Source: Rhodocaloribacter litoris (GTDB taxonomy: Bacteria; Bacteroidota; Rhodothermia; Rhodothermales; ISCAR-4553). From it: a stretch of DNA of 64,000 nucleotides. Position numbers and translations under genes: made by a program. Shown piece by piece: positions 2,459 to 6,268 of this stretch (position 1 is the stretch's first letter; each line of letters opens with the position of its first letter). The notes below the pieces were generated by a model. The model was given only the letters and a program-made list of their open reading frames with translations. It was not told where the DNA came from and ran no database searches. Where the stretch lies: NCBI RefSeq assembly GCF_011682235.2, contig NZ_CP076718.1:337826-401825 (forward strand). The letters are read 5' to 3'.

Positions 2459-2465
2459 CCTCGCA

Positions 2466-2500
2466 CCCCTGCCGCCTCCGCACGCAGGGGTTTTTCTTTT
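2466..2500 (+). terminator. Rho-independent terminator after the tRNA
   Basis: Stem CCCCTGC/GCAGGGG (2466-2472 with 2484-2490) is followed by TTTTTCTTTT. Confidence 0.8.
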
Positions 2501-2575
2501 CCGGAAACCGGCCACCTCTCCCGGTCTGCCACCGGGATTGGAATCGTTTCCACGCCGCGGAGAGCCACCCGGCGT

Positions 2576-2605
2576 TTGACAGGGTGATCATGGTTTCTTT
2601 ATAAT
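2576..2605 (+). promoter_or_regulatory. Consensus sigma70 promoter before the lipoprotein gene
   Basis: TTGACA (2576-2581), 18 bases, then TATAAT (2600-2605): both hexamers match the consensus. With the GGAGG at 2676-2680 it drives the frame starting at 2685. No comparable signals precede the second copy of the same start at 3340. Confidence 0.75.
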
Positions 2606-2684
2606 CCCAGTCACCCGATCGGCATGCCTTCCCTCTCCCGCCCTTTCTCTCGATCCCCCTGTTCAACCGTTTCACGGAGGTCTT

Positions 2685-2716
2685 ATGCGCTCAGCTACCA
2701 CCCTGACCCTGCTCTT
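2685..2716 (+). repeat. Copy 1 of a 32-bp direct repeat (signal-peptide start)
   Basis: Identical to 3340-3371. Identity begins exactly at the ATG and ends after 32 bases; the flanking bases differ on both sides. Confidence 0.95.
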
Positions 2717-3209
2717 TCTCTGCCTAGTTTCTTCTGGTTGTATCATCGATGTTGAAGTAAACGACCCTCACGAAAGTCCCACTTTCAAAAGTTATACTAA
2801 CAAACATCAATTATATCCAAAAGCAGGCATATTAGGCTCTGGAGAATATTTTTTAAGCATTTTCGCCACTCCCTTAGACTACTATTCAAGCAAATCCAGA
2901 ACCGTTGACAGAACTAGTTTGATTATATGTGGTGGTGGTAGCACTTGCGAATTCCCGTTGAATATCACGGTTCAAGGAAATAGTTCAGAGGGAGGGTTAT
3001 ACCTTGTAGATCTTGAGATTAATGACAGGCTTGTATTTTCAGGTTCATATCCATCTAGAACATCTGGATCTTTTTACGAGGGAACTTACAAAGGAAAGTT
3101 AGGCGATACATTCAAACTAACCGCTTCATGGGTTTTGCCATTGACGCCCACAGGTTCGATACCCAGAAGTACTTCTCTAAGTAGTATAACCGCTAACTTA
3201 GCTTACTAA
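2685..3209 (+). CDS. Low-GC putative lipoprotein, unknown function
   Basis: 174 residues. An N-terminal hydrophobic signal ends in VSSGC, a lipobox-like site with Cys19 as the lipidated residue. No family is recognised for the rest. Two lines of sequence counted by hand in the body give 35-40% G+C, against about two thirds in neighbouring genes, so the body looks recently acquired. The first 32 bases are identical to those of the FG-GAP gene at 3340, so an existing signal peptide start appears joined to foreign sequence. GGAGG lies 4 bases before the ATG. Confidence 0.7.
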   Translation: MRSATTLTLLFLCLVSSGCIIDVEVNDPHESPTFKSYTNKHQLYPKAGILGSGEYFLSIFATPLDYYSSKSRTVDRTSLIICGGGSTCEFPLNITVQGNSSEGGLYLVDLEINDRLVFSGSYPSRTSGSFYEGTYKGKLGDTFKLTASWVLPLTPTGSIPRSTSLSSITANLAY

Positions 3210-3339
3210 GATACAGTGTTGCCTAGCTTGGCTCCTGAAACTCTCATTGAGTCGCGCCTTCATCGGCACAATATGATCATCCTGCATACTGACCTTGTCT
3301 TTAATCCTCGCACCCAACCAACCTGCCAGAGAACAACCC

Positions 3340-3371
3340 ATGCGCTCAGCTACCACCCTGACCCTGCTCTT
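3340..3371 (+). repeat. Copy 2 of the 32-bp direct repeat
   Basis: Identical to 2685-2716. The two copies bracket about 620 bases of largely low-GC sequence. Confidence 0.95.
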
Positions 3372-4567
3372 CCTGCTGATTGGTCTCACTCAGACCCAGG
3401 CTCAATCTCTCGAATATATCTTTTCACCTGAACGGACCGGCGAATTAACCGATCCCTTCGCCGTAGGGGCACAGAACGGTGCCCGTGGCCTTTCCGGACC
3501 CTGGGACCTCGACCGAGACGGAAAAATTGAGATTCTAGTTGCACAACATAATAGTGCCGGTGGCCGCATTCATGTTATAGAAAACAACGGTTTCGACACC
3601 TGGGAGCTGGTCTATTCCACAGCGATGATCGATTCATCCGCATCCAGTAGCAATGCACGCTATGCAACTGCCGCAGACCTTGATGGGGATGGAAACCTTG
3701 AGATCGTGTATGTGGCCGGTACGGACTACAGCGACGCCAACCCCAACTTACTGAACGGGGTCTACGTTTGGGAGCACGACGGCGTCGTCGGGTCCGACAA
3801 TTACGGCACGCTCCCGGCTACAATCGGAGCGTTCTTTGAACTCGATGGTCTCGACGACGGCTTCGTTCGAGCGCAAAATCTTGAAGCCACAGACATCGAC
3901 GGAGACGGCATCCAGGAACTACTTGTTCCTGCGGATGGCGACAGCAACCACGACATTTTCTATGTGCTCTCCGTCAACGGATCTTTTGAAACGAACGGTG
4001 TGGGAACCGGCTTCGAAACCTGGGTCATTGAAGCACGCCTAGGACCCCGCGAAAACGGAAATGCCTTTGGTGGTGGAAGCCCCTACGACTTGATCGCCGC
4101 CGATCTGAACGGAGACGGCCAGATGGATCTCTCGTTCCACTCCTGGAATTTCATGAATTTCTTCAACGCCACCGTACCGGGAGCGGATACCATCGTTCTC
4201 CCCGATCTTTCGGCCGACAAGCGTTTCCTACAGGCTTCTGCTCCGGATGACCACGTTGCCTTATTCGGAGGAATCGCTTACGATATCGACGCCGATGGTA
4301 ATAGTGAGCTCTTCTATCCCAACTGGTTTACCAAAAACATCACGGTGATAGACTACAACTCCGGAGATGACGTTTTACAGATCGATGCCAGTAAGGTGGC
4401 TTTCGATGTTATTCCCATCAACGGTGCAGGCGGCATTGCCGTAGGCGACATCGACGGCGATCAGAACATGGAACTGATTGTTGGAGGTAACGGCTATCAG
4501 GCTGATGACTGGAATGAAGGACGACCCTCACAATTCATCTCAATAGCCGAATACCTGGGAGGTGATC
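3340..4567 (+). pseudogene. 5' part of an FG-GAP/VCBS secreted protein, split by an IS
   Basis: The ATG at 3340 opens a signal peptide (MRSATTLTLLF, cleavage near TQAQS). Calcium-binding FG-GAP/VCBS-type repeats follow: DLDRDGKIE, DLDGDGNLE, DIDGDGIQE, DLNGDGQMD, DIDADGNSE and DIDGDQNME. They predict a beta-propeller exported to the cell surface. The frame enters the IS at 4568 and stops at 4576-4578. Joined to 5580-6268, with one target copy removed, it gives 639 codons (638 residues) with no frame change. No good ribosome binding site precedes 3340; an in-frame start at 3295 would precede the signal peptide and is less likely. Confidence 0.85.
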
Positions 4568-5574
4568 ATGCGAATTAAGGGTAGAACGCGAGGATCCACA
4601 TCGCCGCGGCTAGCCGCCCGAAGACGTGCACCAAGAGGCCCTCGAACGAACGCACCTTCGAGGCCACCTCGATGCCCGTCTTCTGCTCGATCCAATTGAA
4701 CAGCGACTCGATCGGCTGCCGGCGCTGACTGACCCGCCGCGAGTACACCTTCTCGGTCAGCAGCACATCGGTCTGCCCCTTGCGCTTCTTCACCGGCGTG
4801 CACAGGTGCAGGTTCTGCTCGGCTGCCAGGCGCTCGCCTAGCTCACGGTCGGCGTAGATCTTATCGGCAAAGAGACGCCCCTCGTGCAGGCGCGGTAGGA
4901 TCTGTCGGGCCACGGTCAGGTCATTGGCCGGGCCGGGAGCCAGTCCGATGTAGAGCGGCAGCGGCATCGTGCCGGGACGCCGCCGTGCGACGACATGTAC
5001 CTTGACGCCGTAGAAATACAGGTTCTTCGAGGCGCAGAAGCCTTTGCCGGCGATGTGCGGAGCGACCCTGGCCCAGGCCGAGCGCTTCTGCTGGGCCATC
5101 ACGACCGGAAAAGAGTCGATGATGTAATCGGTTGGTTCACCAGAGCGCTCTGCAGGTCGCTCACCAGAGGACTGGCGCGGACATGCCTCCAGGGCTGCTT
5201 CGACCAGCAGGGGGAAGGCATCGGCCAGCCGGTTGAGGCGCTGCACGAAGGCGACGTAGGAGGGCAGTTTGGGGAAGAAGGCCATCAGGTGGTCGCGGGT
5301 GTAGGCGTAGATGTCGGTCAGCGTGCGGCGCTGCTGCATGAGGCCGAAGAGGTAGACGGTGAGGACTTCTTCATCGGAGAAGGCCGGCGAGTGGTTGTTG
5401 CTCAGGCGCTGGGCAACGACGCAGAGGCGGCGCTGATACTGCTCACAGACGTGGAGGAACAGATGAATGAGCGTATATTGCCAGTCCATGGGGTCCTCGG
5501 GCGTTTGGTTGGAGGTGAGGGGTCATCTCCTTCTAAACGCTCAGGACACCATGGTGTCAACTCTTAATTCGCAT
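4568..5574. mobile_element. IS982-type insertion sequence, 1007 bp
   Basis: The ends are inverted repeats beginning ATGCGAATTAAG (12 bases identical, then partial match). The host sequence TGATC is duplicated at 4563-4567 and 5575-5579. One transposase gene fills the element on the minus strand. Length, single gene and the short terminal repeats fit IS982. The insertion is inside the FG-GAP gene, and both ends and the transposase frame are intact. Confidence 0.9.
4575..5489 (-). CDS. IS982 family transposase
   Basis: 304-residue DDE transposase, full length for IS982. Recognisable parts are the N-terminal helical region with FSDEEVLTVYLFG, the YIIDSFPVV motif with the first catalytic Asp, the KIYADREL motif with the second, and a C-terminal RRQPIESLFNWIEQKTGIE block with the catalytic Glu. 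It starts at the ATG at 5489 and stops 7 bases inside the left end of the element. Probably active, as no key residue is visibly lost. Confidence 0.9.
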   Translation of the reverse strand: MDWQYTLIHLFLHVCEQYQRRLCVVAQRLSNNHSPAFSDEEVLTVYLFGLMQQRRTLTDIYAYTRDHLMAFFPKLPSYVAFVQRLNRLADAFPLLVEAALEACPRQSSGERPAERSGEPTDYIIDSFPVVMAQQKRSAWARVAPHIAGKGFCASKNLYFYGVKVHVVARRRPGTMPLPLYIGLAPGPANDLTVARQILPRLHEGRLFADKIYADRELGERLAAEQNLHLCTPVKKRKGQTDVLLTEKVYSRRVSQRRQPIESLFNWIEQKTGIEVASKVRSFEGLLVHVFGRLAAAMWILAFYP

Positions 5575-6268
5575 TGATCCTAAAGACGGGGCAAACTATT
5601 TCGTGCAGACGCTCGATACCAGCACCCCTGCGGATACGGCTGGATTCAACATCGTCTATCGCGATTCCCTCGGAATAAAGAGCAGATTCTTCGAAACAGC
5701 CCAGTCAAAATCCGGCAGCACCACGAGTTCTACGGGTGATCCCCATTTTGTATCGGGCATTGCCTACCTAGGTGATGGAGATAACGACGGTGCTGCTGAG
5801 ATTGCCATTTCATTCCAGGGGGTCGATGACAGCCTCTACGTGTATGACGAGATCTGGAATGCGGACTCGTTGCGGTATGAGCGCACCGTCCGTGAAAGAA
5901 TGCCTGCCCCGGTACGCTCATTCCTCCGGATCTACTCCGTAGGTGACCTCGCCGTCAAGATCCAGGACGAGCGCATCGTGCTGCCTTCGGACTACCGGCT
6001 GGAGCAAAACTACCCCAACCCCTTCAACGGGACGACGGTGATCCGCTTCACGCTCCCCCTGGACAAGCGCGTCAGCGTAAAGGTCTACGACATGACGGGG
6101 CGCCTGGTGAAGACGATCGTCAACGACCAGCTCCTGCCCAAAGGCGCGCACGAGGTCAACTGGGACGGCACCAGCGACACCGGCATCCCGGTGGCCAGCG
6201 GTTCCTACCTCTACACGCTCGAATACGGCAACTTCCGCCAGAGCAAGACGATGGTGCTGTTGAAATGA
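5575..6268 (+). pseudogene. 3' part of the FG-GAP protein with T9SS sorting domain
   Basis: The continuation of the split gene starts at 5580, after the second TGATC. It carries one more FG-GAP-like unit (DGDNDGAAE) and a classic T9SS type-A C-terminal domain of about 90 residues (YRLEQNYPNPFNG, then VKVYDMTGRLV, then a terminal KTMVLLK). This domain directs passage through the type IX translocon and surface attachment. A GTG at 5603 could give a short product, but it would lack a signal peptide. Confidence 0.85.

Follow-up and report, generated by a model that had tools for sequence, protein, structure and literature searches.

A low-G+C insert bracketed by a duplicated gene start in Rhodocaloribacter litoris, and similar gene-end brackets elsewhere in its chromosome

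The minimal mobile elements of Neisseria are recombinase-free gene cassettes that lie between conserved genes and are exchanged through recombination in the flanking genes. Elements that integrate at tRNA genes or at dusA carry a replacement gene end, and such elements are known to target 3′ as well as 5′ ends of genes. A further route, homology-facilitated illegitimate recombination, was reportedly described by de Vries and Wackernagel and by Prudhomme et al., both in 2002. Displacement by this route has been proposed for Vibrio effector modules and arrays, and one-sided illegitimate joining is orders of magnitude rarer than ordinary homologous recombination (PMC5361080). Restriction-modification systems of Helicobacter pylori provide an example of insertion with long target duplication (Nobusato et al. 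2000), known here through later descriptions (PMC1643837, PMC3031569). As far as these descriptions go, that case and the inserts reported below have in common an addiction-type module, no obvious transposase, a long direct target duplication of variable length and the comparison of related genomes.

The locus considered here lies in a 64-kb stretch of DNA, analysed as a whole and termed the window, on the complete chromosome of R. litoris (G000; 4,502,320 bp, G+C about 67%). The start of a gene for an FG-GAP repeat protein is present there twice, each copy opening at an ATG (Table 1). The copies, at 2685 and 3340, agree at 32 of 32 positions (ATGCGCTCAGCTACCACCCTGACCCTGCTCTT) and at 34 of 35 on extension, which bears out the 32 shared bases named in a preliminary description of this DNA. 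With low-complexity sequence excluded, this is the longest exact direct repeat in the window; the longest repeat in 20 second-order Markov sequences of the same length did not exceed 19 bp, which rules out a chance origin. Its first 24 bases, with up to three mismatches allowed, occur at only two places in the whole genome, so that there is no third copy and a genome-dispersed repeat family is ruled out as well. G+C content is 39.5–40% over 2701–3200 and 60–70% in most of the surrounding DNA, close to the 35–40% first estimated between the copies; the figure for the whole insert, against about 65% in the local flanks, is raised by its last 130 bp (about 50%). Between the copies, an open reading frame (GC3 0.35) is followed by a 130-bp spacer. 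Neither mark of an insertion sequence or transposon was found in the insert: open reading frames and family searches gave no transposase gene in 2717–3339, and the terminal inverted match measures 6 bp, against a shuffle mean of 5.7.

Table 1. Features of the FG-GAP locus, in window positions
Feature	Position	Strand	Remarks
LacI-family-like palindromic operator TGGAATCGTTTCCA	2539-2552	+	Pattern match; TGGAATCGCTTCCA before the sister FG-GAP gene (L019:6412-6425)
Promoter TTGACA-18-TATAAT, ancestral to FG-GAP	2576-2605	+	12/12; aligns with sister TTGAC...TTTATA
GGAGG ribosome-binding site of copy 1, ancestral to FG-GAP	2676-2680	+	GGAGGTCTTATGCG vs sister GGAGGTATTATGCG
Copy 1 of FG-GAP start	2685-2716	+	32 bp exact; to 2719 with one mismatch
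Chimeric open reading frame, 174 aa	2685-3209	+	11 FG-GAP signal-peptide codons in frame with an orphan secreted protein
Inserted low-G+C segment	2717-3339		623 bp, 42% G+C; absent from sister
Copy 2 of FG-GAP start, joined to FG-GAP body	3340-3371	+	Begins exactly at ATG
5′ part of FG-GAP gene (FG-GAP repeats)	3340-4567	+	PF13517 E=5e-19; 81% identical to sister gene
IS982-family element splitting FG-GAP	4568-5574	-	Transposase 4575-5489; terminal inverted repeat I4
3′ part of split FG-GAP gene	5575-6268	+	Type IX secretion sorting domain, TIGR04183 E=5.3e-10; continues sister gene

The chimeric reading frame encodes a putative lipoprotein, MRSATTLTLLFLCLVSSGC, whose newcomer part matches no Pfam or NCBIfam family. 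Homologues (34–39% identity) were found in only two genomes, G014 and G048, which belong to another family of the same order, in a search of 114 genomes of the order and 245 of the class; 394 genomes drawn from the phylum yielded G014 only, and a pattern scan of genome contigs returned the same two. Viral contigs, phages and plasmids gave no match, and a plasmid or phage origin of the newcomer is thus unsupported. Since the homologues start differently, with MLKPSLLVLLLSLL (MLKPSLLVLLL), the first 11 codons of the window gene are foreign to the newcomer family. The join is in frame and falls within the hydrophobic core of the signal peptide. A lipobox-like VSSGC is seen by inspection at residues 15–19, and the homologues are without the cysteine; the switch to a lipoprotein signal put forward earlier rests on this one motif, from which lipidation is predicted. 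A predicted structure was mostly beta and of poor quality (pLDDT 45).

In the sister genus (G001, L019:6608), the FG-GAP gene has a single start and no insert. Its upstream block shares with the region before copy 1 a common operator (ATTGGAATCGYTTCCACG), the TTGAC...TTTATA promoter and GGAGGTNTTATGCG. In local alignment to this block, the region before copy 1 scores 44 against a shuffle maximum of 41, whereas the region before copy 2 scores 19, equal to the shuffle mean, with nothing detectable in common. Because the sister promoter block matches the copy 1 side only, the insert sits inside the ancestral FG-GAP gene, between promoter-plus-start and body. FG-GAP orthologues of relatives open with MRKATTL or MKTATTL and have related signal peptides (MRKATTLGVMLLFL, MKTATTLLIVLALIG), which makes the duplicated start native to FG-GAP. 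Two paralogous genes that share one start, the situation named in the preliminary description as fatal to an insertion, are ruled out by these orthologue starts together with those of the newcomer homologues. Its central proposal, that a foreign segment entered just after the FG-GAP start and duplicated it, is thereby supported by both the insert-free sister allele it had suggested looking for and the promoter block. The signals of expression also stand before copy 1 only, as it had held: copy 2 has no GGAGG, and 2460–3460 contains no second promoter-like site on the + strand. That the newcomer took over promoter and ribosome site agrees with the native origin of the region before copy 1, but FG-GAP has not necessarily lost its promoter and may be transcribed together with the newcomer, as no terminator was found between the two genes. 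The chimera would be expressed and exported. Among the loci compared, the TGGAATCGTTTCCA palindrome occurs only here and in the sister genus; its LacI-like form suggests sugar-responsive control of an FG-GAP/TonB receptor operon, and now possibly of the newcomer too.

The disrupted host gene is an ordinary member of the FG-GAP/type IX secretion cargo genes, with PF13517 repeats and a Por secretion tail, but, unlike typical members, it is split by an IS982 element and parted from its promoter by the insert. The element, which matches the IS982 model with E=3.5e-36 and 125 bits (below the cut-off of 130), occurs in the genome as six near-identical copies and one 93% copy. TGATC is duplicated around it (4563–4567 and 5575–5579), and it cuts the sorting domain off the first FG-GAP part. 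As the halves carry no other stop and their pN to the sister is 0.125, this damage looks recent. Over 3340–5930, the FG-GAP body has a GC3 of about 0.58 and its proteins are 79–81% identical to the sister. Synonymous sites between the two are saturated (pS 0.71, against 0.38 for the next gene). A check on whether the entire FG-GAP gene had been replaced from a distant source showed that amino-acid distances to an outgroup scale normally and that GC3 differs.

The newcomer homologues are also bracketed. In G014, the homologue and a Fic gene lie in a low-G+C region of about 2 kb (45% G+C) between two of the copies of a gene end. The duplicated unit, 95% identical, comprises the final 158 bp of a GHL10-type gene and some 22 bp past its stop. 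G048 has three GHL10 gene ends, and the homologue likewise resides in a low-G+C insert bracketed by the duplicated GHL10 3′ end; in G041 and G024, of the same genus, this end is single-copy. At L023:7328-8747, a newcomer homologue and a Fic/DOC gene are neighbours within a low-G+C insert that lies upstream of the FG-GAP gene. The GHL10 bracket of G014 and G048 lies just upstream of the same FG-GAP gene as in the window, with the homologue in the opposite orientation. That the newcomer is found in three genomes only, each time with a gene-end bracket beside the same FG-GAP gene, speaks against a foreign insertion at random and in favour of a variable junction at which cassettes are received.

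To speak of one foreign segment having entered understates what is seen, since the window insert is one of about a dozen gene-end-bracketed inserts. A similar bracket in the sister genus, near the FG-GAP locus, prompted a scan for direct-repeat brackets in 2.46 Mb of the R. litoris chromosome (55% of the genome). At L019:5388-6332 of the sister genus, an MNT-HEPN pair is inserted at a response-regulator gene end, 81 bp of which are duplicated (78/81 identical); the duplication terminates precisely with the stop codon. Apart from the window, R. litoris has brackets at 266465/267283, 648077/650103, 1012920/1016628, 1693384/1694117, 2043669/2045174, 2169293/2171229, 2251394/2252253 and 3192512/3193496. 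At 1196137/~1196945-1196951/1198837 (L071:16137-18917; G000 1196137-1198917), one gene end is present in three copies around two inserts, one carrying DUF433-DUF5615 and the second a PIN-like reading frame; this locus is a case of successive insertions at the same gene. The duplicated gene ends at these other sites measure 43–435 bp, and most copy pairs are 93–100% alike. When the flanks were joined and used as queries against the sister genus, 3192512 and 2169293 each matched without interruption across the site, while 266465 gave adjacent matches, so that the DNA past the displaced fragment is native and the insert starts at the end of the intact gene. A low-G+C bracket at 1409249 was excluded from the class, its repeat being non-coding and an IS982 copy lying inside. 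Elsewhere (L078; G000 1333983-1338507), there is a CRISPR-like array of 29-bp repeats (CCTATCCCCACGCCCGTGGGGGTGAACCG) at a spacing of about 61 bp.

On inspection of both edges, nearly all brackets have a start or stop codon no more than 2 nt from the repeat edge that faces the insert. The rule is not absolute: the edge at 2169293 is 8 nt short of the codon, and the G014 repeat overruns its stop as described above. At 266465, exact identity reaches as far as the stop codon, and 6 more bases match past one mismatch. In several brackets, for example 2251394 and 1693384, the copies end in different stop codons (TAG, TGA). An automated test, which relied for insert-facing ends on a crude gene caller together with inspection, placed the edge at a called gene end in seven of nine low-G+C inserts, compared with 2 of 43 other repeats (Fisher p=9e-6). 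These edges bear on whether the brackets are true long target-site duplications, in which staggered breaks 30–435 bp apart were filled in on either side of a foreign fragment, whether enzymatically or through end joining, in the manner of a transposition. Such an event would give exactly this topology, with the target doubled on both sides and an empty site in relatives, and would leave copies as alike as most of those observed. It is nonetheless unlikely, because the outer edge should then fall anywhere, with similarity running past the codon. No insert, moreover, has terminal inverted repeats above shuffled controls, and inspection of the internal bracket edges revealed no common motif or core. 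Long target-site duplication thus accounts for the topology, not for the codon edges.

The cargo comprises PIN, DUF433 with DUF5615, HicB with HicA, ParE with a RelB-like antitoxin, and XRE-M78 with PIN, in addition to weak matches to nucleotidyltransferase and PIN; some inserts carry only family-less proteins. Among strictly detected PIN or nucleotidyltransferase loci within the scanned part, only one of eight is bracketed, a count that weighs against the explanation favoured below. Codon edges would be explained if elements supplied gene ends that stop at the terminal codon, as in site-specific integration at gene ends by a tyrosine or serine recombinase, acting in trans or since lost, of an element bearing a replacement gene end. 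This explanation appears improbable, given that the host gene differs each time, that the internal edges have no common core, and that the insert families (toxin-antitoxin types, a nucleotidyltransferase and unknowns) include no recombinase; none of the insert proteins tested is a recombinase or integrase.

Compared with insertion with long target duplication, the present inserts agree in having a single target in insert-free relatives (the sister FG-GAP gene and three more empty sites) and in a variable duplication that exceeds transposon duplications in length. They differ in cargo, which is an orphan secreted protein here and toxin-antitoxin elsewhere rather than restriction-modification and, as far as the later descriptions of the H. 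pylori case reach, in their Rhodothermales host and the consistent edge at start or stop codons. Owing to this other cargo, other lineage and codon-edge rule, we file them as a variant of that class and not as strict members. The codon-edge rule may already be known in the older literature. Neisseria minimal mobile elements are exchanged cleanly, whereas a duplicated gene end remains here. The likeness to homology-facilitated illegitimate recombination would consist in one homologous anchor, one illegitimate join and displaced fragments behind the insert.

The codon edge would be expected if the copies were two alleles of a gene, alike in coding sequence but with different non-coding DNA next to it. 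This points to incoming DNA that carried the same host gene, with a homologous join on one side and an illegitimate join on the other. We consider it fairly probable that the brackets represent small foreign inserts, mostly toxin-antitoxin and with no recognised recombinase, each bracketed by a duplicated host gene end through one homologous and one illegitimate join; for this pair of joins as the mechanism, confidence is about even or slightly better. The incoming DNA would carry the host gene beside different non-coding DNA, and the incoming gene would pair with the resident one by homology on one side. The other side would be joined illegitimately inside the resident gene end, so that the stretch from this join to the terminal codon would be present twice. 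At FG-GAP, copy 2 and the segment upstream of it would represent the incoming side, and the illegitimate join would lie between FG-GAP codon 11 and the signal-peptide region of the newcomer. As a result, the native promoter, ribosome site and first 11 codons would drive the chimera, and copy 2 would restart FG-GAP. Codon-end edges suggest a homologous junction, but allele polarity reveals no donor alleles in the intact copy. It is the displaced fragment that usually departs more from the sister sequence; this accords with decay of the fragment and does not clearly mark the intact copy as the donor's. The sister genus's own case points the other way, and the 32-bp copies are too similar to polarise. 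Counting against one homologous plus one illegitimate join is the number of brackets, about eleven in 55% of one genome, common here whereas homology-facilitated illegitimate recombination is reported to be rare.

The identity of some copies, in the window and at 648077 (205/205), would also follow from replicative template switching at short microhomologies, in which the polymerase switches from the gene to foreign DNA and then resumes on the gene upstream of its exit point. Insert and duplication would then arise in one step from copies that start out identical. We regard this as very unlikely, since it does not explain why the polymerase should nearly always leave or re-enter at a start or stop codon, and a foreign template would be needed each time. 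The duplicated gene end might also act as an address tag: with two copies present, RecA could cut the module out as a circle that retains one of them, and this end would guide reintegration into the same gene in another cell. This reading is quite unlikely; if it were true, toxin-antitoxin modules and orphan genes would spread in Rhodothermales as recombinase-free, gene-addressed cassettes.

Taken as a class, the brackets look like a repeated route by which DNA is gained without a known transposase. A newcomer that in a single step takes over the promoter, ribosome site and signal peptide of a resident gene would exemplify a route to chimeric secreted proteins. The codon-edge rule is a simple signature that can be searched for in other genomes, and with about eleven clean examples, for several of which the sister genus has the empty site, the transposase-free entry of chromosomal toxin-antitoxin modules becomes a testable question.
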